DNA of 64,000 nucleotides from Geothermobacter ehrlichii. GTDB lineage: Bacteria > Desulfobacterota > Desulfuromonadia > Desulfuromonadales > Geothermobacteraceae. The notes beneath the pieces were generated by a model that did no database searches, was not told the origin of the DNA, and was given only the letters and a program-made list of their open reading frames with translations. The translations under genes and the position numbers were made by a program. Positions 10,921-52,036 of the stretch are shown here, piece after piece. Position 1 is the stretch's first letter, and every line of letters starts with the position of its first letter. The DNA is taken from positions 186,001 to 250,000 of the forward strand of contig NZ_VNIB01000003.1 of assembly GCF_008124615.1 (NCBI RefSeq), in the 5' to 3' direction.

Positions 10921-12006
10921 ATGAAAGGTTTGTACATGGAACACGGACTGACGAAAAAACTCTCCTTCCTCGACCGCTACCTGACTCTGTGGATTTTTCT
11001 CGCCATGTTCATCGGTGTCGGAGCCGGCTGGCTCTTTCCAAGCGTGAAGGATGTCGTCAATACCTTCTCGGTCGGCACCACCAATATCCCCATCGCCATC
11101 GGCCTGATCCTGATGATGTATCCGCCGCTGGCCAAGGTGCGTTACGAGGAGCTGAGCGAGGTTTTCGCCAACCGGAAGATTCTCGGCATTTCCCTGCTGC
11201 AGAACTGGGTCATCGGCCCGGTGCTGATGTTCATTCTCGCCATCGTTTTTCTGCACAACTATCCCGAGTACATGGTCGGACTGATCATGATCGGCCTGGC
11301 GCGCTGCATCGCCATGGTCATCGTCTGGAACGAACTGGCGAAAGGAAATACCGAATATTGTGCCGGGCTGGTCGCCTTCAACTCGGTCTTCCAGGTCCTG
11401 TTCTACTCGGTCTACGCCTGGTTCTTCGTCACCGTCCTGCCGCCGCTGTTCGGTCTCGAAGGGGCAGTGGTTGAAATTTCCATCGGCCAGATCGCCGAGA
11501 GCGTGGCGATCTACCTCGGCATTCCCTTCGTTTCCGGGATGCTGACCCGTCTGGTGCTGGTCAAAAGCAGGGGGCGGGACTGGTACGAAAGGAAATTTAT
11601 CCCCAGAATCAGCCCCGTCACCCTGGTTGCGCTGCTCTTCACCATCCTGGTCATGTTCAGTCTCAAGGGGGAACTGATCGTTTCGATACCGCTCGATGTG
11701 GTGCGGATCGCCATCCCGCTGCTGATCTATTTCGGCATCATGTTCCTGGTCAGTTTCTGGATGGGAGTCAAGGCCGGAGCGGACTACTCCAGGACCGCGA
11801 CAGTGGCCTTTACCGCTGCCGGCAACAATTTCGAGTTGGCGATCGCGGTGGCGGTGGCGGTCTTCGGACTCGATTCCGGCGCGGCCTTTGCCGCGGTGAT
11901 CGGCCCGCTGGTCGAGGTGCCGGCGCTGATCGGGCTGGTGAATGTCGCCTTCTGGCTGCAGAAAAAGTATTATGGCCGCAAGGAGCCTGTTTCTGCGGCC
12001 GTCTGA
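10921..12006 (+). CDS. acr3: Arsenite efflux transporter Acr3
   Basis: Exports arsenite from the cytoplasm by proton exchange. The 361-residue protein has about ten hydrophobic helices (BART superfamily). The conserved cysteine of the fourth helix, [18 protein letters not shown], and the discontinuous-helix motif [18 protein letters not shown] are present. Start choice: ATG 10921, with an alternative at 10936 (MEHGLTKKL). It follows arsC and repeat copy 2, downstream of arsR. Confidence 0.95.
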
Positions 12007-40203: not shown

Positions 40204-40989
40204 TCAGACCGTCGCTTGCGCAAACCGCAGCTGCTGCGGATGGGTGAATATGTCCATGCGCTGGCTCCGCAGGTAACCGACCAGGGTGATGCCGGCCTGC
40301 TGGCAGAGGTCGATCGCCTTGTCGGTCGGCGAGGTGCGCGAGGCGATCAGGCCGATGCCGAGCCGCGCCGCCTTGGCGACCATTTCGCTGGAGATTCGTC
40401 CGGAGCTGATCAGTATCCGGTCGCGCAGTTCGATTGTTCGGAACAGGGCCTCGCCGGCCAGCCGGTCGAGGGTGTTGTGGCGGCCGATGTCCTCGGCGTG
40501 CAGCAGCAGGCCGTCGGCATCGCCGATGGCCGCCGAGTGGATGCCGCCGTGGCTGCGGTAGTGTTCGGCCCGCTGCTGCAGTTCGTGCATGCAGCGCAGC
40601 AGCGCGTCGGCGTGGTAGAAGCGGGTTGTTGGTGACGGCGGACGGAGCAGGTTTTCGGGCAGGTTGAAGAAGATGCCGGTGCCACAGCCGGAGGTCAGGG
40701 TCGGTTGCAGCCGGTCGGGAACCTGCGTCCGCAGACGCAGTTCGGCCAGGGCGTCGTCCTGGCAGATGCCCATGATCAGGATGTCGTCGAGGCTGTCGAT
40801 GAAGCCCTGCAGGCGCAGAAAGCCGGCGACCAGGAAATGGAGCTGGTGAGGTGAGCAGACCAGGGTCGCCAAATCGTGACCGTTGATGCGCAGACGCAGG
40901 GGATATTCTTCCACCACCTGCCGCTGCGTCGGTTCCGGCTGTCCCTGGACCACCCGTACGATCTTGCGTGCGAAAGGCTGCTTGGTCAT
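40204..40989 (-). CDS. fdhD: FdhD sulfurtransferase for Mo/W-cofactor
   Basis: A 261-residue FdhD protein, which transfers sulfur from IscS to the bis-pterin Mo/W cofactor of formate dehydrogenase. The active loop TLTSGCGTG has one Cys where E. coli has two. HNTLDRLAG and SSGRISSEMVAKAARLGI are family landmarks. It starts 10 bases downstream of bamI, so it belongs to the bam unit; no formate dehydrogenase is in the window. A role for the tungsten cofactor of BamB is a possibility. Confidence 0.93.
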   Translation of the reverse strand: MTKQPFARKIVRVVQGQPEPTQRQVVEEYPLRLRINGHDLATLVCSPHQLHFLVAGFLRLQGFIDSLDDILIMGICQDDALAELRLRTQVPDRLQPTLTSGCGTGIFFNLPENLLRPPSPTTRFYHADALLRCMHELQQRAEHYRSHGGIHSAAIGDADGLLLHAEDIGRHNTLDRLAGEALFRTIELRDRILISSGRISSEMVAKAARLGIGLIASRTSPTDKAIDLCQQAGITLVGYLRSQRMDIFTHPQQLRFAQATV

Positions 40990-40999
40990 CGGCAGAATG

Positions 41000-41623
41000 T
41001 CATCCGTGTCCCGAACAGCCGCCGCAGGATTCTGCTTGCGGCGGCGCCATCAGCGACTCGATCAGCACGTACGCGGCCTGCAGCGCCGAAGTGGGGCAGA
41101 GCGGAAAGCATTCCTTGCAGTCCCAGCATTCCTTGACGGCGATCTCCGGGATGAAGTTGATTTCGCGTTTCGCCCCCCGGTCGAAAAAGCCGACGGCGTG
41201 CTTCTGCTTGACTTCGGCACAGTATCGCACACAGAGGCCGCAGAGGATACAGAAAGAGGCCTCCTTTTCATAACGTCCGGGATCGGCGCCGTATTCGCCG
41301 GCCAGTTCCAGCAGCTCCTCCGAGTCGGGAGCGTGGGACAGCATCTGTTCGAGCAGCACCCGGCGGATTCTGTCCAGCTGTTCGCTCCGGGTCCTGACCA
41401 CCTGGTCGGCTTCCGCCGGATGGGTGCAGGCGGCGACATAACCGGTTCGTCCCTGCGCTTCCAGCTCCACCGTGCAGATGCGGCAGGCCCCGTAGGGCTC
41501 CAGCTGTTCGTGGTGGCAGAGGGTGGGGATGGTGATCCCGGCCGTCTGGGCCGCTTCGAGAAGGGTCATGCCGGGCTTGGCGGCGACCTTCTTTCCGTCG
41601 ATCTGCAGGAAAAAATCACTCAT
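41000..41623 (-). CDS. bamI: BamI-like 2Fe-2S/4Fe-4S protein (NuoG N-terminal type)
   Basis: A 207-residue protein. N-terminal 2Fe-2S domain (LCHHEQLEPYGACRICTVEL...ACTHP), followed by 4Fe-4S sites CILCGLCVRYC and CWDCKECFPLCP. It resembles the first part of NuoG/HoxU and is the BamI position of the class II benzoyl-CoA reductase cluster. Transfers electrons between BamGH and the core. 6 bases separate it from bamH. Confidence 0.85.
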   Translation of the reverse strand: MSDFFLQIDGKKVAAKPGMTLLEAAQTAGITIPTLCHHEQLEPYGACRICTVELEAQGRTGYVAACTHPAEADQVVRTRSEQLDRIRRVLLEQMLSHAPDSEELLELAGEYGADPGRYEKEASFCILCGLCVRYCAEVKQKHAVGFFDRGAKREINFIPEIAVKECWDCKECFPLCPTSALQAAYVLIESLMAPPQAESCGGCSGHG

Positions 41624-41629
41624 GGGCTG

Positions 41630-43540
41630 TCATCCTATGCATCGCTTCTCTTCGGGGAGAGGCTCGGGAACGGGCTGGCCGGACAGCTTGCTGACGGCGC
41701 CGAAGGCTTCGGGGCAGGCCTCCAGGCAGGCGCCGCACCTGGTGCACCTGTCCTGGTCGATGACGTGAATCCGTTTCTTGCCGCCGTCGATCGCTTCGGC
41801 CGGGCACTGGCGGAGACAGGCGCCGCAGGCCCGGCACTTCTCCGGATCGATATGGTAGGCGATCAGCTCCCTGCAGGCCAGGGCCGGACAGCGCTTCTCC
41901 CTGATGTGCGCCTCGTACTCTTCCCGGAAGTGGTTGAGGGTGCTGAGAACCGGGTTGGGGGCGGTCTTGCCCAGGGCGCAGAGGGAGGCGTACCTGGTGG
42001 TTTCGGCCAGCTCCTGCAGGCGCTCGAGGTCGTCCTCCTGCCCCTGCCCGCGGGTGATGTCGGTCAGAATCCTGAGCATCTGCCTGATGCCCTCGCGGCA
42101 GGGGGTGCACTTGCCGCAGGACTCGTCGCTGAGAAAGCCGAGAAAGTAGCGCGCCAGGTCGACCAGGCAGGTGTCCTCGTCCATGACGATCATGCCGCCC
42201 GAGCCCATCATGGCGCCGGCCCGGGTCAGCTCGTCGAAGTCGACAGCGGTGTCCAGCAGCGATTCCGGGATGCAGCCACCGGAAGGACCGCCGGTCTGCA
42301 CCGCCTTGAACTTCTTGCCGCCGGGAATACCGCCGCCGATCTTGTAGATGATGTCGCGCAGGGTGGCGCCCATCGCCACCTCGACCAGGCCGGTGTTGTT
42401 CACCTTGCCGACCAGGGAGAAGATCTTGGTCCCCTTGCTCCCCTCGGTGCCGATGGAGTTGAAGAATTCGGCCCCACGGTTGATGATCAGCGGAATGTTG
42501 GCCCAGGTTTCGACATTGTTGATGTTGGTCGGCCGGTTCCACAATCCGCGGACCGCCGGGAAGGGCGGCCGTGGTTTCGGCTCGCCCGGCAGGCCTTCCA
42601 GGGACTTGATCAGCGAAGTCTCCTCGCCGCAGATGAAGGCGCCCGCGCCGCGATGCACCCTGACCGTGAAGTCGAAGCCGGAGCCGAGGATTTTCTTCCC
42701 CAGCAGGCCGTATTTTTCCAGCTTGGCGAGGGCGGCTTCGAGATTGCTGACCGCCAGCGGATATTCCTGGCGCACGTAGACATAGCCTTCGCTGGCGCCG
42801 ATGGCGTAGGCGCCGATCATCAGCCCCTCGATCACCGCGTAGGGATTCCCCTCCATCAGCGAGCGGTCCATGTAGGCTCCGGGGTCGCCCTCGTCGCAGT
42901 TGACGACCACGTATTTCAGCTCGCCGGGCGCCCTGCGGGTGAATTCCCATTTCACGCCGGTGGGAAAGCCGGCGCCGCCGCGGCCGCGCAGGTTCGCCCG
43001 CTTCACTTCGTCGACGACCTGCTCCGGTGTCAGCTCGAACAGCGCCCGGCTCAGGGCCTGGAAGCCGCCGACGGCGAGATAGTCCTCGAGGCTCTTCGGG
43101 TCGATCTCCCGGTTCTGGCCGAGGATGAGCCGCTGCTGGTGCCTGTAGAAGGGAATCTCGGCTTCGCGGGCGATCTTTTCGCTGGTGGCGGGATCGGCGT
43201 AGAGCAGCCGTTCGACCCGCTTCCCGTTGACGATCGTTTCACTGACGATTTCCGGAACATCTTCCGGCTTGACCCTGAGGTAGCAGATACCCTCGGGCTG
43301 GATGACGGCGATGGGGCCCTGTTCGCAGAAGCCGTGGCAGCCGGTCCGGCGAAAATCGACCTTGTCGCCGAGCCCCTGTTTCTTCAGCTCCTGTTCGATC
43401 GCCGCGGCGACCGGACCACAGCCGGTCGCGTGGCAGGCGCTGCCGGAGCAGAGTGTGATGCTGGGGCGTTCCGACTCTCTCCGGGCGAGGATTTCGGTGC
43501 GGAGTTTTTCCAGGTCGGCAACTGATTTTATCCTGGCCAT
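41630..43540 (-). CDS. bamH: BamH-like NuoF-type FMN/NADH subunit
   Basis: A 636-residue protein: thioredoxin-like 2Fe-2S domain (CSGSACHATGCG, CHGFCEQGP), NuoF core with NADH/FMN loops (LRGRGGAGFPTGVKW, VVNCDEGDPGAYMDR, GAGAFICGEETSL), 4Fe-4S motif SCGKCTPCREG and a C-terminal two-cluster ferredoxin (CRACGACLRQCP, CTRCGACLEACP). It is the NAD(P)H-reacting side of the complex. Start 43540. Known family members in Geobacter are named BamH. Confidence 0.9.
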   Translation of the reverse strand: MARIKSVADLEKLRTEILARRESERPSITLCSGSACHATGCGPVAAAIEQELKKQGLGDKVDFRRTGCHGFCEQGPIAVIQPEGICYLRVKPEDVPEIVSETIVNGKRVERLLYADPATSEKIAREAEIPFYRHQQRLILGQNREIDPKSLEDYLAVGGFQALSRALFELTPEQVVDEVKRANLRGRGGAGFPTGVKWEFTRRAPGELKYVVVNCDEGDPGAYMDRSLMEGNPYAVIEGLMIGAYAIGASEGYVYVRQEYPLAVSNLEAALAKLEKYGLLGKKILGSGFDFTVRVHRGAGAFICGEETSLIKSLEGLPGEPKPRPPFPAVRGLWNRPTNINNVETWANIPLIINRGAEFFNSIGTEGSKGTKIFSLVGKVNNTGLVEVAMGATLRDIIYKIGGGIPGGKKFKAVQTGGPSGGCIPESLLDTAVDFDELTRAGAMMGSGGMIVMDEDTCLVDLARYFLGFLSDESCGKCTPCREGIRQMLRILTDITRGQGQEDDLERLQELAETTRYASLCALGKTAPNPVLSTLNHFREEYEAHIREKRCPALACRELIAYHIDPEKCRACGACLRQCPAEAIDGGKKRIHVIDQDRCTRCGACLEACPEAFGAVSKLSGQPVPEPLPEEKRCIG

Positions 43541-43549
43541 GACGTCCCC

Positions 43550-44008
43550 TTATTTGCAGGTGCAGTTCTTCAGTACTTTCGCCGTTTCGGCCGTATCGAC
43601 GTTGCCGTGGTACTGACCGTCGACGACCATCACCGGTCCCAGGGCGCAGCAGCCGAGACAGTTGACGGTCTCGACGCTGAAATTCAGCTCGGGATCGGTT
43701 TCGCCGGGGCCGACGCCGGTCACCTCGCGCACGGTATCGAGAATCCGCTCCGCGCCGCGAACGTGGCAGGCGGTGCCCATGCAGACATGGACCTCGTGGC
43801 GGCCCCGGGGGACCAGGCTGAAGGTCTTGTAGAAGGTGGTGATGTGCCGGATGCGGCTCATAGGAACGTTCAGCCGCTCGCTGACCCTGACCAGTGCCTC
43901 GTGAGGCAGCCAGTTGTTCTTGCTCTGGATTTCCAGCAGCACCTGGATCAGCGAGCCGGCCTCGCCCTGGTGCCTGTCGATAATCTGATCGATGGTTCCG
44001 ATGTCCAT
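43550..44008 (-). CDS. bamG: BamG-like NuoE-type 2Fe-2S subunit
   Basis: A 152-residue thioredoxin-like ferredoxin: CMGTACHVRGAERIL and VNCLGCCALGPV bind one 2Fe-2S cluster, the NuoE pattern, following a helical N-terminus (LLEIQSKNNWLPHEAL). Start 44008 follows AGAGGA; an in-frame codon five residues earlier has no better site. It is partner of BamH. Confidence 0.9.
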   Translation of the reverse strand: MDIGTIDQIIDRHQGEAGSLIQVLLEIQSKNNWLPHEALVRVSERLNVPMSRIRHITTFYKTFSLVPRGRHEVHVCMGTACHVRGAERILDTVREVTGVGPGETDPELNFSVETVNCLGCCALGPVMVVDGQYHGNVDTAETAKVLKNCTCK

Positions 44009-44075
44009 GGAGTTCCTCTTCATTCCGGAATCTGTGGCAAAAGCAGGTTGCCGTAAAGCCCGTCAGTGTACCCTC

Positions 44076-44840
44076 TCACGCCAGGGCGAAGCGTTTCTGC
44101 TTCTCGTCGAACCGGACCAGCCCGTACATGGTCGAATTCTTCAGGTGCCTGGCCGCCTCGGCTGGCGGCAGGTCGAGGGCCTGGGCGATTTCCCCGCTGG
44201 AGAGCTGCCGGTCCCGCAGCAGCAGCGTCAGCAGGGTGATGTTCAGCTTGTCGAGCAGCAGCTCCCTGAACAGCCGGTCGAAGTCCTCGCCGGCGAAATA
44301 GTCGGCATACTCCTCCTGGGTGGCGAATCTCACTCGCAGCCGTTCACGCTCCACCAGCTTGATGTAGGGCACCATCCTGTTCAGTGCTTCCAGCTTGAGC
44401 TTCAGGGTATCCCGGTCGAGGCCTTCGCCCTCGCCGAGCGGACCGAAGCCCTTGAGCTGCCTGCCGAAGTCGTTCATCACCTCGGCATAGCGGGCCCCTT
44501 CCGAGGCGGCGATCCATTCGAGCCGCAGCCGCAGCGGATTGACCCCGATCTGTTCGAGAAGCTTGCGGCACAGGTGCATGTTGAACAGAGCGTCGTAGTT
44601 CCCCTCGGTAACGTAGTGACACTCGCCCGGCCAGCAGCCGCCGATGAAGACCCCGTCCGCGCCCCGTGCAAAGGCGCGCAGCACGAAGGAGAGGTCGACC
44701 CGGCCGGTGCACATGACCCGGATGATCTTGGTTTCAGTGGTGTATTGTTGCCTGGAAACTCCAGACAGGTCCGCAGCCGCGTACGCTCACCAGGTGCACA
44801 GAAAGCCGATGACGTTGGGCCTGTACTCAAATCCTGCCAT
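44076..44840 (-). CDS. bamF: BamF-like MvhD-type selenoprotein (in-frame TGA = Sec18)
   Basis: ATG 44840 follows GGAGGAAACC. The reading frame gives MAGFEYRPNVIGFLCTW, then TGA at 44787-44789, then AYAAADLSGVSRQQYT and on to the stop at 44076 with full homology (CTGRVDLSFVLRAFARGADGVFIGGC). In related MvhD proteins this position is a Cys (TWCAY), so TGA replaces Cys and should be selenocysteine; BamF of Geobacter and Desulfococcus are known selenoproteins. The hairpin at 44752-44764 is the SECIS candidate. 254 residues in all. MvhD-type proteins pass electrons from HdrA to the partner; the C-terminal part carries a winged-helix-like tail. A search that stops at TGA would start at Met43 and lose the redox-active N-terminus. 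Confidence 0.93.
44752..44764 (-). promoter_or_regulatory. SECIS-like hairpin for Sec18 of BamF
   Basis: In the transcript, CUGGA-GUU-UCCAG forms a 5-bp stem with a 3-base loop whose first base is G. It begins 22 bases after the UGA, inside the 16-37 base window needed for bacterial SECIS elements. Confidence 0.75.
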
Positions 44841-44861
44841 GGTTTCCTCCTTTCATGGGTA

Positions 44862-45019: not shown

Positions 45020-48000
45020 CTACGGAATCGCCTCGTCGATCTGGGCGATGATTTCGTCGTCGGTGTAGTGCTTCAGGTAGATCGCGCCGGTTGGGCACTT
45101 GGCGTTGCACAGTCCGTCGCCCTTGCAGAGCACCGGTTCGACCCGCGCCTTTTTCCCCTGTGGCGTCTGGTGGAAGCTGATCGCGTCGTAGGTGCAGGCG
45201 CTGATGCAGGCGCCGCAGGAGATGCAGGCGTATTCGTTGACGTCGCAGACCGCGCCCGAGGCGGTGACCGAGTCGCCCGACAGGATACTGACGGCGCGGC
45301 CGGCAGCGCCGTAGGCCTGGTTGATGGTTTCGTGGATATGCTTCGGATACTGCGCGGTTCCGCAGAGGAAGACGCCGTCGGCGGCGAAGTCGACCGGCCG
45401 CAGCTTGACGTGGGCTTCCTGGAAGAAGCCGTCGGGATTCATCGAGACCTTGAACAGCCGTGCCAGCTCCCGACTGCCCTTCGCCGGAACGATGGCCGCC
45501 GACAGGACGAGCAGGTCGGCTTCCAGCTCCAGTCGCTGCCCCAGCACCGGGTCGGGGACGGTGATCTTCAGCCCGTTGCCGGCCGCTTCGACCTGCGGCT
45601 TGTTGTCCGGCTCGAAGCGGATGAACTTGATGTCCAGCTCGGCGGCTCTGCGGTAGTGATCCTCCTTGAAGCCGTAGGTGCGCATGTCGCGGTAGAGGAT
45701 GTGAATGTCGATCTCCGGGTTGCGCTCCTTCAGCTTCAGGGCGTTCTTGACCGCCTGGCCGCAGCAGACCCGGCTGCAGTAGTTTCGGCCCTCTTCGCGG
45801 CAGCCGACGCACTGGATCATGACCAGGCTGCCGGCGGCGTTGACCCGGTCGCTGTCGGTGACGATTTCCTTCTCCAGCTCGAGCTGGGTCAGGACCCGCT
45901 CGTTCTCGCCGTAGAGGTATTCGTCGGGACGGTGCTGTTCGGCACCGGTGGCGACGACGGCGATGCCGTGCCGGATCGTCTGCAGCCGTCCGCCCTCACG
46001 CTCGATGGTGGTCTCGAAGTTGCCGATGTAGCCGGTGACGTCGCGGATGCTGGCGTCGGTGGCGACATGGATGCGCGGATTGCGGTAGACCTTGCGGATC
46101 AGCTCCTGCAGGTGGGCCTGAACGTCCATCCCCTCGAGGGTGTAGTAGATGTTTCGCGCCATGCCGCCCAGGTCGGAATCCCGCTCCACCAGATAGATTT
46201 CGTAGCCCTGTTCGGCCATGTTCAGGGCACTGGTCATGCCGGCCAGGCCGCCGCCGATCACCAGGGCCCGCTTGTCGACCGGCAGCTCGAATTCCTGCAG
46301 CGCTTCCAGGTGCGCCGCCCGGGCCACCGACATGCGGATGATGTCCTTGGCCTTTTCGGTGGCGTTCTCCTTCTCCTTGGAGTGGACCCAGGAGCAGTGT
46401 TCGCGGATGTTGGCGAACTCGAAAAAGTAGGGATTGAGCCCTGCCTCGCGGCAGGTATCCCGGAACAGCGGCTCGTGGGTGCGCGGCGTGCAGGCCGCCA
46501 GCACCAGGCGGTTGAGGCCCTTTTCGACGATGGCGTCGGAGATCTGCTTGGCGTTTTCGGTGGAGCAGGCGAACAGGTTCTCGCCCGCCCAGGTGACGTG
46601 CTCCAGGGTGGCGGCGTATTCGACCACCGCCGGGATGTCGACCACCCGGCCGATGTTGGCCCCGCAGTGGCAGACCACCACCCCGATGCGGGGTTCTTCC
46701 TGCGAGACGTCCCGTTCCGGTGGATAGACCCGCTCGCGGCTCAGCCGGTGGCGGCGATGATTGAGCAGCTTGCCGCACAGGGCGTCGGCGCCGCTGGCGG
46801 TAACCACCGCCTCGGGGATGTCCATCGGCCCCTGGAAGGCGCCGCTGACGAATACCCCCTTGCGGCTGGTCAGGATCGGGTTGCGCGGGTCGGTCCTGCA
46901 GAAACCGTGCTCGTTCAGCTCGATGCCGAACTTCTGCGCCAGTTCCTTGTTGCCGGCCGGCGGATTCAGCCCGACCGACAGCACCACCAGCTCGAACTCC
47001 TCTTCCTTCACCCCCCCGTCGAAGGTCGAATAGCGGATGGTGACGTTCTTGGTCTTCGGATCCTCGCGGACGACGGTGACGTAACTGCGGATGAAACGGA
47101 CATCCTCCAGTTTCTCGGCCCGCTGGTAGAAACGCTCGAAGTCCTTGCCGAAGGCGCGGATATCGTTGTGGAAGATGGTGGCGTCGAGCCCGCTGTCATG
47201 GTCCTTGGCCAGAATCACCTGCTTCTGGGTGTAGGTGCAGCAGACGGCCGAGCAGTAGCTGTTGCCGCCGGGAATCACCTGGCGCGAACCGACACACTGG
47301 ATCCAGGCGATCTTTTTCGGGTGCGTCAGGTCGGACGGCCGCAGGACTTCGCCCTCGAAGGGGCCGGTGGAGCAGAGCAGCCGCTCGAAATCGAGGCTGG
47401 TGACGACGTTCTCCATCCGCCCGTAGCCGAAGTCGTTGCGCAGCTTCGGGTCGAAGGTGTCGTAGCCGGGGGAGAGCAGGATGGCGCCGACCTCGACCTC
47501 GAACTGCTCCGGCTTCTGGTGCAGGTCGATCGCCCTGGTCTTGCAGACGCCGACACAGATCTGGCACTTCTCTTCCTTCAGGTAGAGGCAGGTTTCGGGG
47601 TCGACGTAGGTGACCAGCGGCACCGCCTGCGAAAAGTGGATGTGCACCGCCTTGTTGGTCGACAGCCCCTGGTTGAAGGGATCGGGGATTTCGACCGGGC
47701 AGTAGTCGACGCAGATGTTGCAGCCGGTGCATTTCTCCTCGACGATGTAGCGCGGCTTTTTGCTCAGGGTGACCCTGAAGTCGCCCGCTTCGCCCTCGAC
47801 CCGTTCGACTTCGGTGTAGGTCAGGATTTCGATATTCGGGTTGCGGGAACACTCGATGAACTTGGGCGACTCGATGCACATCGAGCAGTCGTTGGTGGGG
47901 AAGGTCTTGTCCAGCTGGGCCATCTTGCCGCCGAGGGCCGGCGACTTGTCGACCAGGAAAACCCGGAAACCCGAATCGGCGAGGTCGAGCGAGGCCTGGA

Positions 48001-48076
48001 TGCCGCTGATGCCGCCGCCGACAACCAGGACATCGCCCTTGTCCGCGGAATGTCTCGCTGCTGGTCTGTTTGCCAT
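45020..48076 (-). CDS. bamE: BamE-like HdrA-type flavoprotein (electron bifurcation)
   Basis: A 1018-residue fused HdrA: two FAD-binding Rossmann domains (VLVVGGGISGIQASLDLA near residue 17; ALVIGGGLAGMTSALNMA near residue 570), cysteine-rich CTGCNICVDYCP and KCQICVGVC sites, VCHCGANIG, and a C-terminal pair of 4Fe-4S clusters (CISCGACISAC, LCKGDGLCNAKCP). Start 48076 (MANRPAARH) follows GGAAGGAAG; a longer frame overlaps bamD. HdrA carries the FAD that bifurcates electrons. Confidence 0.9.
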   Translation of the reverse strand: MANRPAARHSADKGDVLVVGGGISGIQASLDLADSGFRVFLVDKSPALGGKMAQLDKTFPTNDCSMCIESPKFIECSRNPNIEILTYTEVERVEGEAGDFRVTLSKKPRYIVEEKCTGCNICVDYCPVEIPDPFNQGLSTNKAVHIHFSQAVPLVTYVDPETCLYLKEEKCQICVGVCKTRAIDLHQKPEQFEVEVGAILLSPGYDTFDPKLRNDFGYGRMENVVTSLDFERLLCSTGPFEGEVLRPSDLTHPKKIAWIQCVGSRQVIPGGNSYCSAVCCTYTQKQVILAKDHDSGLDATIFHNDIRAFGKDFERFYQRAEKLEDVRFIRSYVTVVREDPKTKNVTIRYSTFDGGVKEEEFELVVLSVGLNPPAGNKELAQKFGIELNEHGFCRTDPRNPILTSRKGVFVSGAFQGPMDIPEAVVTASGADALCGKLLNHRRHRLSRERVYPPERDVSQEEPRIGVVVCHCGANIGRVVDIPAVVEYAATLEHVTWAGENLFACSTENAKQISDAIVEKGLNRLVLAACTPRTHEPLFRDTCREAGLNPYFFEFANIREHCSWVHSKEKENATEKAKDIIRMSVARAAHLEALQEFELPVDKRALVIGGGLAGMTSALNMAEQGYEIYLVERDSDLGGMARNIYYTLEGMDVQAHLQELIRKVYRNPRIHVATDASIRDVTGYIGNFETTIEREGGRLQTIRHGIAVVATGAEQHRPDEYLYGENERVLTQLELEKEIVTDSDRVNAAGSLVMIQCVGCREEGRNYCSRVCCGQAVKNALKLKERNPEIDIHILYRDMRTYGFKEDHYRRAAELDIKFIRFEPDNKPQVEAAGNGLKITVPDPVLGQRLELEADLLVLSAAIVPAKGSRELARLFKVSMNPDGFFQEAHVKLRPVDFAADGVFLCGTAQYPKHIHETINQAYGAAGRAVSILSGDSVTASGAVCDVNEYACISCGACISACTYDAISFHQTPQGKKARVEPVLCKGDGLCNAKCPTGAIYLKHYTDDEIIAQIDEAIP

Positions 48077-48093
48077 GATTCTTCCTTCCATGC

Positions 48094-49290
48094 TCAGAGC
48101 ACGGCCTGAACTATTTCCGTGAGATCCTTGATTTCCAGCGCCTCGTTCTCGTCGAGATCGAGACTGCTGTCGGTGAAGTTGGTGATGCAGTAGGGACACG
48201 AGGTCACCAGCACTTCGGCGCCGGCCTCGACCGCCTGTCTGACGCGCAGATCGGCGAAGCGGTCCTCCTTGGGGGTCTCCATCCAGATCCGCCCGCCGCC
48301 GCCGCCGCAGCAGAGACTGTTTTCGCGCGCATCGGCCATCTCGTTCAGCTGAAGGCCGGGGATCCTGCCCAGCACCTCGCGCGGGGCGTCGTAGATGCCG
48401 TTGTGCCGGCCCAGGTAGCAGGGATCGTGGTAGGTGACCCTTTTCGGATACTCGCCCTTCAGCTCCAGCCGCCCCTCGGCGATCAGCTCGGCGATCAGCT
48501 CAGAGATGAACATCACCTCGAAGTTGACCATGAATTCGGGATACTCGTTCCTGAAGGTGTGGTAGCAATGGGGCGAGGAGACCAGCACCTTCTTCACCCC
48601 GCGTTCGATGAAGGCCTTGATGTTGTCCCTGGCCAGGCGCTTGAACAGGTCTTCGTTGCCGGTCTTGCGGATGCTCTCGCCGCAGCAGTTCTCCGCGGCG
48701 CCGAGAATGCCGAAATCGACCCCGGCCTTCTGCAGGATGGCGGCGGTGGCGGCCGCGACCTGGCGCATCCGCGGGTCGTAGCTCAGGTAGCAGCCGGTGA
48801 AGTAGAGGATCTCCATCCCCTCGGAGTAGGGCTTGACCGCCAGGTCTTTGGCCCAGTCGGCGCGCTTTTCGCGCTCGCCGCCGAGGGAGTTGCCTTCGGA
48901 GGTCAGGCTGGCGACGACGTTCTGCACCGGGGCGACATGGCCCGGATAGACGTCGTATTCGGCGGCGATCCGGCGCAGCGCCACCCCGGCCTCGATCTGG
49001 TTCACTCCGCGGGGACAGCGCTGGGGACAGGTGCCGCAGGTCGAGCAGCGCCACATCTCTTCCTTGTCGATCTCGGTCAGGCCGAAGGTCGCCTGGCGGA
49101 CGAGCTTGCGCATGCTGAATTGCCGCACCCGGTTCCACGGACAGACGGCGTCACACAGTCCGCACTGGTAGCAGTACTTGAACGAATCGCCGCCGTTCTC
49201 CTTGATGACCTCGATGATTTCCCGTTCGGGGGCTACAGTTTCCACGCTATCACCTGTTTCTGTTTGCAAACCTGCAAGTAAGTCCGCCAC
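48094..49290 (-). CDS. bamD: BamD-like HdrD/HdrBC-type Fe-S protein
   Basis: A 398-residue protein. Two 4Fe-4S motifs at the N-terminus (CYQCGLCDAVCP, CSTCGTCPQRCP) precede two CCG domains (CCGESIRKTGNE, SLCCGGGGGRIWMET) of heterodisulfide-reductase type. It links BamC/B with the HdrA-like BamE. Separated by 17 bases from bamE. Position and family match BamD. Confidence 0.87.
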   Translation of the reverse strand: MADLLAGLQTETGDSVETVAPEREIIEVIKENGGDSFKYCYQCGLCDAVCPWNRVRQFSMRKLVRQATFGLTEIDKEEMWRCSTCGTCPQRCPRGVNQIEAGVALRRIAAEYDVYPGHVAPVQNVVASLTSEGNSLGGEREKRADWAKDLAVKPYSEGMEILYFTGCYLSYDPRMRQVAAATAAILQKAGVDFGILGAAENCCGESIRKTGNEDLFKRLARDNIKAFIERGVKKVLVSSPHCYHTFRNEYPEFMVNFEVMFISELIAELIAEGRLELKGEYPKRVTYHDPCYLGRHNGIYDAPREVLGRIPGLQLNEMADARENSLCCGGGGGRIWMETPKEDRFADLRVRQAVEAGAEVLVTSCPYCITNFTDSSLDLDENEALEIKDLTEIVQAVL

Positions 49291-49460: not shown

Positions 49461-50003
49461 CTAGCCCTTGTCTTTCGCCAGCTGTTCCACCGTGTCGAGG
49501 ATCTTGTCGAGGCCGTGCTTGTTGATCAGGGTTTCCAGACCGATTTCGATCTCGTCCGGCGCTTCCTCCTCCTCGACTTCCACCTCTTCTTCCCGCTCCT
49601 CGTAGGTCAGGGCGTCGACCAGACACCACTTGACGCACAGGGGCTCCTCTTCGCCTTCGCACATGTCGCATTTCAGCGGCAGGCCGGAGTCGGGTTCCTT
49701 GAACTCCTCCCGCGACGGACAGGCGGCGCGGCAGAAGGCGCACTCGTCGTATTCCTTGCCGTCGATGACGTACTTGTCGCGGCCGGCGCACTCGGCGACG
49801 GTGTATTCGCCGGCGTAGACCGGAACGTAGATGTCGCGCAGCGGATCGTGGATCACCCGGATGCGCGAGCGGGCCGGATTGTTGCTGCTGTATTTCGGCA
49901 CGGCGTGGAAGGCGGAGCAGATGACCTCGCAGGCCCGGCAGCCGTTGCACTTGTCGACGTCGATCTTGATGTTCTTGATCGTTCTCTTCTTCATGCTGGT
50001 CAC
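49461..50003 (-). CDS. bamC: BamC-like 4Fe-4S ferredoxin subunit
   Basis: A 180-residue protein with several 4Fe-4S clusters: CNGCRACEVICSAFH, CAFCRAAC, CDMCEGEEEPLCVKWC, followed by an acidic tail. It is the electron-transfer partner of BamB. Start is GTG 50003 if the GGGAGG at spacing 9 is used; ATG 49994 gives MKKRTIKNIKID and is the alternative. 17 bases follow the bamB stop. Confidence 0.85.
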   Translation of the reverse strand: MTSMKKRTIKNIKIDVDKCNGCRACEVICSAFHAVPKYSSNNPARSRIRVIHDPLRDIYVPVYAGEYTVAECAGRDKYVIDGKEYDECAFCRAACPSREEFKEPDSGLPLKCDMCEGEEEPLCVKWCLVDALTYEEREEEVEVEEEEAPDEIEIGLETLINKHGLDKILDTVEQLAKDKG

Positions 50004-50020: not shown

Positions 50021-52036
50021 CTACTGGTTCGCTGTTTCCGTTACCGCCTCCCGGTTCTCGTCCGTGGCGGCCGTTTCGTCGTCGCTCAGGATCCCCCGCT
50101 CCAGGAACTCCCGGGCCACGTAGTCCAGGCCGAGCGACTCCAGGGTTTCCTTCGTTGGAATGCCCTCCTCGTTCCAGCCCTTGAATTTGTAGTAGGTGTC
50201 GAGCAGTTCCTTCTCCAGTTCCGGGAAGCGATGCTTCCAGTGGTTTTCCGGCGGCTTTTCGTCCTTGCGCCGCATCCCCCGGCGGATGTTGATCGCCCGC
50301 ACCAGGGTCCGGTAGCGTTTCGCCGCCTCGGTCAGCTTCTCTTCGTCCATCGCAATGCCGGCGCCGGCGGAGATGAACTTTGGGTAGTTGTGGATGTGGT
50401 AGGGCGGCTTCAGCGGGAAGGAGGAGAGCCCGGCGCACTGGCCGAGAGCGTCGTCGATGTAGTGCATCCGCTCCTGCCAGTCGACGATTTCACAGGTCAT
50501 CTGCACCGTCGGGTAGTAGGGGATCGAGTTCTCGCCGCGCGGTTCCCAGTCGAGGAAGTACTGCTTGAACTTCTCGTCCGGCACCTGGATCCAGTCCTTG
50601 ACGAACTCCTCGCGCGCCTCGCGGCTGGGAAAGGGCGCCTGCGGAAACTGGCCCTCGATCTGGGTGATGTTGATCTTCTCGCCGGTGGAGTACATCAGGA
50701 AGTAGATCGGGTTGAGCATCGACAGCTTCAGGGGCAGCTGCTCGTGCTTCTTGATCGTGTTGTGGGCGTAGTCCTCGGCGCCGTTGCCGATCTCCTTCGC
50801 CGCCCAGTAGGTGCCTTTGGCCAGCGTGTCGCCGATGCCCTTGCGGTGGACGATCATGTCGAGCAGGTAGAAGAAGCGGCCCTCGTTGTCCTCAGGCATT
50901 CCGGGGAAGTCGTCCTTGCTCAGGATGCCGTTCTCCAGCAGCTCGAGGGCGAAGGCCATCACCTGCGGGGCGGAGAAGCCGTCCAGGCCGTACTCGGTGG
51001 CCTTCTGGGCGATGCGCAGGCCGAAATCGAGGTCCGAGTAGGCGGCCATGGTGTAGGTCAGCTTGGTGAAGCACTTCATCATGTAGGTCGGCAGCCCCGG
51101 CATCGAGATGGTTGCCCCGCACTTCATCGGGCAGTTGAAGCAGCTGATCAGCCGCGTGCGGGCCTTCTCCATGGTTTCGGTCCACTCTTTTTCGATCTCC
51201 TCGGTCCAGAAGCCCTTGCGGCGGGTGCGGGAGTTGCCCCACATGAAGTTTTCGGTGTGCCACTTCTCGTCGTGGATCTTCATCTCCTGCGGCGAGCCGA
51301 GCCCGGCCAGAATCGGCATCACCCCCGGGATCGGGTGTTCTTCGCGGTACTTGATGTACTCCAGAACCTCGTTGCACAGGGCCAAGAACTCCTCCGGCCG
51401 GGCGACGCTGATGTCTTTGGTGCCGCGCACCGCGATCGCCTTGACCCCCTTGTCGCCCATGACGGCGCCGATACCGCCGCGGCTGGCGCTCGAGCGGCCC
51501 TGCTCGATGGAGGCGTAGTAGACCCGGTTTTCGCCGGCCAGGCCGATGGCCGCCACCTGGGCCCTGGGCTCGTTCAGCTCCCGCTTGATGATTTCGGCGG
51601 TTTCGATGGCGCCCTTGCCCCGCAGGTGCGAGGCGTCGCGGATTTCGACCTTGTCGTTGTGGATCCACAGGTAGACCAGGTCGGGCGACTTGCCTCGCAG
51701 CACGATCTTGTCGTAACCGGCGTACTTCAGCTCCGGGGCCCAGAAGCCGCCCATCATCGAAAAGGCCATCAGGCCGGTCTGCGGCGAGATGGTCGAGACG
51801 ATGGTCCGGTTGCAGCCGGTCGCCGGCGTGCCGCACAGCAGGCCGGCACCGAAGATCAGCAGATTGTCGGGGGAAAAGGCGTCGACCTCGGGGGGGACCC
51901 GGTCCCAGAGAAGCTTGGTATTGGTGCCCAGGCCCCCGAGATAGAGCTCGGTTTCTTTCGGATCGGTGGCCACCTTTTCTATGTTGCCCCGGGAAAGATC
52001 GATTTCGAGATTGATCCCTGTCTCTGCGTACCTCAT
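50021..52036 (-). CDS. bamB: BamB-like tungsten aldehyde:ferredoxin-oxidoreductase-type subunit (benzoyl-CoA reductase)
   Basis: A 671-residue AOR-family enzyme. It is the catalytic subunit that reduces benzoyl-CoA to a cyclohexadiene-carboxyl-CoA at a W-bis-pterin centre, without ATP. Cluster motif CFNCPMKCG near residue 300 and the pterin-binding landmarks (GLGTNTKLLWDRVP, SASRGGIGAVMGDKGVKAIAV) are present. The ATG at 52036 is preceded by AGGGGTAGGAAG. It opens the series bamBCDEFGHI. Other AOR-like functions cannot be ruled out from sequence, but the partner set is specific. Confidence 0.87.
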   Translation of the reverse strand: MRYAETGINLEIDLSRGNIEKVATDPKETELYLGGLGTNTKLLWDRVPPEVDAFSPDNLLIFGAGLLCGTPATGCNRTIVSTISPQTGLMAFSMMGGFWAPELKYAGYDKIVLRGKSPDLVYLWIHNDKVEIRDASHLRGKGAIETAEIIKRELNEPRAQVAAIGLAGENRVYYASIEQGRSSASRGGIGAVMGDKGVKAIAVRGTKDISVARPEEFLALCNEVLEYIKYREEHPIPGVMPILAGLGSPQEMKIHDEKWHTENFMWGNSRTRRKGFWTEEIEKEWTETMEKARTRLISCFNCPMKCGATISMPGLPTYMMKCFTKLTYTMAAYSDLDFGLRIAQKATEYGLDGFSAPQVMAFALELLENGILSKDDFPGMPEDNEGRFFYLLDMIVHRKGIGDTLAKGTYWAAKEIGNGAEDYAHNTIKKHEQLPLKLSMLNPIYFLMYSTGEKINITQIEGQFPQAPFPSREAREEFVKDWIQVPDEKFKQYFLDWEPRGENSIPYYPTVQMTCEIVDWQERMHYIDDALGQCAGLSSFPLKPPYHIHNYPKFISAGAGIAMDEEKLTEAAKRYRTLVRAINIRRGMRRKDEKPPENHWKHRFPELEKELLDTYYKFKGWNEEGIPTKETLESLGLDYVAREFLERGILSDDETAATDENREAVTETANQ

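Follow-up and report, generated by a model that had tools for sequence, protein, structure and literature searches.

The window analyzed here, a stretch of 64,000 nucleotides from Geothermobacter ehrlichii, carries on its minus strand an intact bamBCDEFGHI gene order encoding a class II benzoyl-CoA reductase, an enzyme complex that breaks aromatic rings anaerobically (Table 1), and the bamD-to-bamI part of this context is common to most of the checked relatives with a Sec-type bamF. The bamF gene is complete and contains a single internal TGA, at codon 18, after which the frame stays open until a TGA stop codon at 44078-44076. Mechanical ORF calling yields a 212-aa ORF at 44714-44076 that starts at Met43. 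A sequence-only reading of this DNA had instead followed the frame from the upstream ATG through the TGA and taken the latter as a selenocysteine (Sec) codon; the ribosome-binding site in front of that ATG and the open frame behind it agree with this proposal. The same reading had held that automated calling starts at Met43 and thereby loses a CxxxU-type redox site. The predicted start is indeed the one called, whereas the motif around codon 18 is C15-T-W-U18, that is, CxxU.

Table 1. Features of the bam locus, in coordinates of the window.
Feature	Coordinates	Strand	Remarks
bamB	50021..52036	-	aldehyde:ferredoxin oxidoreductase (AOR) family, tungsten subunit
bamC	49461..49994	-	ferredoxin-like; ORF with MKKRTIKNIKIDVDKCNGC start; assigned by place and Cys motifs
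bamD	48094..49290	-	HdrC/HdrB- and GlpC-like iron-sulfur protein
bamE	45020..48199	-	HdrA-like, duplicated; true start may be inside the listed ORF
Ribosome-binding site GGAGG	44846..44850	-	upstream of ATG 44840; read directly in the sequence
bamF CDS	44076..44840	-	254 aa with predicted Sec18; MvhD/FlpD domain at aa 10-133 plus C-terminal region with HTH-like matches; PF02662, PDB MvhD chains
In-frame TGA at codon 18, predicted Sec	44787..44789	-	78 of the 86 distinct relatives have TGA, eight have a Cys codon
Bacterial SECIS-like hairpin	44749..44767	-	5' arm 44767-44760, loop GUU 44759-44757, 3' arm 44756-44749
bamG	43550..44023	-	NuoE/HoxE-like
bamH	41630..43540	-	NuoF-like
bamI	41000..41623	-	HoxU/NuoG-N-like
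fdhD	40204..40989	-	sulfurtransferase for Mo/W enzymes

Homology to MvhD runs unbroken across the UGA, and the site is Cys in standard MvhD proteins, both as had been proposed from the sequence. The PF02662 (MvhD/FlpD) profile matches the read-through protein over its full length (positions 1-123 of 123) with 156.4 bits against a cut-off of 22.3, and MvhD chains of solved structure in the PDB align with BamF from residue 5 onward, with Cys at residue 18. The best solved relative, MvhD of Methanothermococcus thermolithotrophicus (PDB: 5ODC; E 6e-41), is unlike BamF in having Cys at the site (C-N-W-C) and no C-terminal extension. The length of this extension is kept in relatives, and its match to HTH_20 reaches 23.4 bits, under the cut-off of 27. 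Across 89 compared sequences, including two MvhD of solved structure, Cys15, Cys44, Cys69, and Cys74 are invariant and residue 18 is always Sec or Cys.

In two genome collections, 108 loci were found, with TGA at the codon 18 site in 104 and a Cys codon in 4; removal of duplicates and the addition of four Cys-type copies left 78 distinct TGA sequences and 8 Cys sequences. The stop codon at this site is always TGA, with neither TAA nor TAG among the 86 distinct relatives, and the eight Cys sequences carry TGC or TGT. Identity to BamF of the window is highest, at 84%, in the nearest relative, Geothermobacter hydrogeniphilus, and falls as low as 52%. Judged by title, the records with these loci come from Geobacteraceae, other Desulfuromonadales, Desulfobacterales, Syntrophobacterales, Myxococcota, Planctomycetota, Acidobacteria, Chloroflexi, and others.

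The genome to which the window belongs (3.24 Mb, 100% complete, 33 contigs) encodes SelA (538.8 bits) and SelB (374.7 bits, over the cut-off), together with a tRNA-Sec (selC; 76 bits) to which ARAGORN assigns the anticodon UCA. The genes for all three adjoin one another on one contig (C15). Two selD genes are also present, both complete, at L138:1061-2100 (G000:C4) and L139:1090-2100 (G000:C9), and each has an in-frame TGA (ARTCGUAAKIG and SRTCGUAAKIG, respectively) that we take to mark the active-site Sec/Cys position. To our knowledge, two Sec-containing SelD proteins in one genome are unusual. The absence of sel genes, named beforehand as the finding that would speak against a Sec codon, was thus not observed: selA, selB, selC, and selD are all present. 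Among the relatives, one genome with a Sec-type bamF, the draft of Desulfosarcina cetonica, has no SelA match.

Downstream of the UGA lies a hairpin, 20-38 nt to its 3' side, whose core stem CUGGA/UCCAG closes a GUU loop and starts 22 nt after the UGA, where the sequence-only reading had placed it; three more pairs at the outer end, including a U.G pair, extend the stem to 8 bp, so that it starts 19 nt after the UGA. Bacterial SECIS elements are hairpins 3' of the UGA with a small loop, a G in the first two loop bases, and a distance of about 16-37 nt between UGA and loop. The GUU loop of the bamF hairpin begins 27 nt after the UGA. No match to Rfam was obtained at gathering thresholds anywhere in the window, and hairpins as good as this one stand behind 31 of its 1738 TGA triplets (1.8%). 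Single-sequence folding indicated that the hairpin is not unusually stable alone (z-score, -0.17) and hence gave it no support, so comparative tests were used.

These tests set the TGA genes apart from the Cys-type genes. The core stem is kept in 77 of the 78 TGA genes, which share ancestry and therefore do not count as independent events in this or the following codon comparison; the expectation was 3.4 and the maximum 9 in 300 simulations in which codons were redrawn at random among synonyms according to each gene's own usage. None of the eight Cys-type genes has the stem. Within the 3' arm, all 78 Sec genes encode Arg30 by AGA or AGG, codons that make up 37% of the remaining Arg codons of these genes, and all eight Cys genes encode it by CGN, although AGR accounts for 54% there. 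In some lineages, the stem is retained despite a change of Ser29 to Thr or of a Val codon to GTG. Mere inertia appears an unlikely cause of this conservation, because identity among the relatives falls to 52%. A SECIS-like element as suggested earlier is thus borne out by its conservation against the synonymous null and its absence from the Cys homologs.

Taken together with the continuous homology and the sel genes, a hairpin conserved only in TGA genes argues strongly that SelB and tRNA-Sec, directed by this hairpin, insert selenocysteine at the UGA of bamF codon 18; we regard this reading as nearly certain. Were the TGA instead a true stop, a shorter functional BamF would begin at Met43, where a 212-aa ORF does start. 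Such a protein would lack C15 and residue 18, both conserved in all MvhD and BamF sequences compared, while the ribosome-binding site sits at the upstream ATG instead, codons 1-42 are still homologous in the relatives, and only TGA genes conserve the hairpin. We consider a Met43 start very improbable.

The presence of TGC or TGT in eight homologs would fit a sequencing error at this base or a decaying pseudogene. Against both, the TGA recurs in 104 loci of two collections, G. hydrogeniphilus included, and bamF has no other frame damage and intact neighbor genes. The independent presence of the TGA in relatives at 52-84% identity excludes a sequencing error in practice, and the probability that either explanation holds is vanishingly small. 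The frame itself shows read-through as such and nothing more, which would also suit translation of the UGA by another route, through a near-cognate tRNA-Trp or a reassigned code. However, homologs with a sense codon at the site have Cys rather than Trp, bamF itself ends in TGA, the genome has tRNA-Sec, SelA, SelB, and SelD, and the hairpin is kept solely where the codon is TGA; read-through other than as Sec is therefore highly improbable.

With codon 18 read as Sec, a role for BamF can be proposed. SelB and tRNA-Sec, guided by the hairpin, would insert Sec at this codon during translation, and Sec18 together with C15, C44, C69, and C74 would form a [2Fe-2S]/redox site. Electron transfer between BamGHI, the NADH module, and the flavin-bifurcating BamE may run through this site. 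In MvhD, a [2Fe-2S] cluster lies close to the bifurcating FAD of HdrA (PMC12350162), and we infer that BamF likewise connects BamGHI with BamE, with Sec18 in or beside the BamF cluster.

Sec in bamF of the window adds a further example to a feature that had been described before in the MvhD/FrhD family. The novelty implied by the sequence-only reading does not hold: a 2026 review counts MvhD/VhuD/FrhD (PF02662, CxxU) among the experimentally verified selenoproteins (PMC13188914), and a 2006 survey recorded one Sec-containing FrhD in Geobacter metallireducens (PMC1794560). The latter is very likely BamF, because bamF is annotated as a hydrogenase delta subunit in that organism, where BamF (Gmet_2083) matches that of the window in operon position and architecture ("hydrogenase, delta subunit; HTH"; PMC1924859). 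The window's BamF comes from another bacterial family, that of Geothermobacter, and no functional difference between the two is seen. Huwiler and colleagues, writing in PNAS in 2019, reportedly found that the Bam complex they had purified contains selenocysteines. The Sec-containing MvhD/VhuD/FrhD of methanogens and sulfate reducers share the domain and the CxxU motif with BamF of the window, whereas their partners are hydrogenase or formate dehydrogenase and those of BamF are BamGHI. The archaeal members use archaeal SECIS elements. For Desulfococcus multivorans, SECIS-backed Sec codons have been described in mvhD and bamE (PMC5109826). In bamE of the window there is no internal stop or in-frame UGA; the position of Sec seems to differ between Bam complexes. 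Gene callers that stop at UGA shorten BamF by its N-terminal 42 residues, two of them in the redox site, a truncation that annotation of aromatic-ring-reducing bacteria should therefore correct.

In a protein tree rooted on two Cys-containing MvhD, a single change between Cys and Sec is needed among BamF-type proteins (support 84/83), with the Cys rows basal. A tentative scenario, which we hold to be somewhat doubtful, is that the change from a Cys MvhD to Sec happened a single time, at the root of Sec-type BamF, and that Sec has been fixed since. If it is true, single gain and fixation would suggest that the potential of the BamF electron-transfer step requires the selenol or, alternatively, that the UGA makes the Bam complex selenium-dependent. 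SelA is present in all eight genomes with Cys-type copies, so loss of the machinery does not explain the Cys. Pairs of Sec and Cys BamF, with and without the hairpin, offer a natural control for the role of selenium in the MvhD connector.

Of the eight Cys-type copies, three lie in bam operons (L052, L060, and L072) and four in other contexts, the flank of L093 being too short to assign. In the three operons, BamF has Cys-Cys at positions 18-19 in place of Sec, a naturally occurring Cys form of the complex. Genomes of this class with a Sec-type bamF also have BamF-like copies of the Cys type (C-N-W-C-C-Y) away from bam operons (L141, L142, L143, and L144), and near the Cys-type gene in L142 and L144 is an ORF that by eye resembles 2-hydroxyacyl-CoA dehydratase activators.

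A scan for other UGA codons in the window that required six Watson-Crick pairs returned no candidate and missed bamF too. A relaxed scan gave two further plus-strand sites, at 11472 and 16881, each with a strong hairpin and a long open frame; they have no Pfam domain, are overlapped by long ORFs on the opposite strand, and probably reflect chance. On the minus strand, fdhD directly follows bamI, an arrangement also seen in Geothermobacter (L024), and its product may act in the maturation of BamB, the tungsten subunit, or of a formate dehydrogenase elsewhere.
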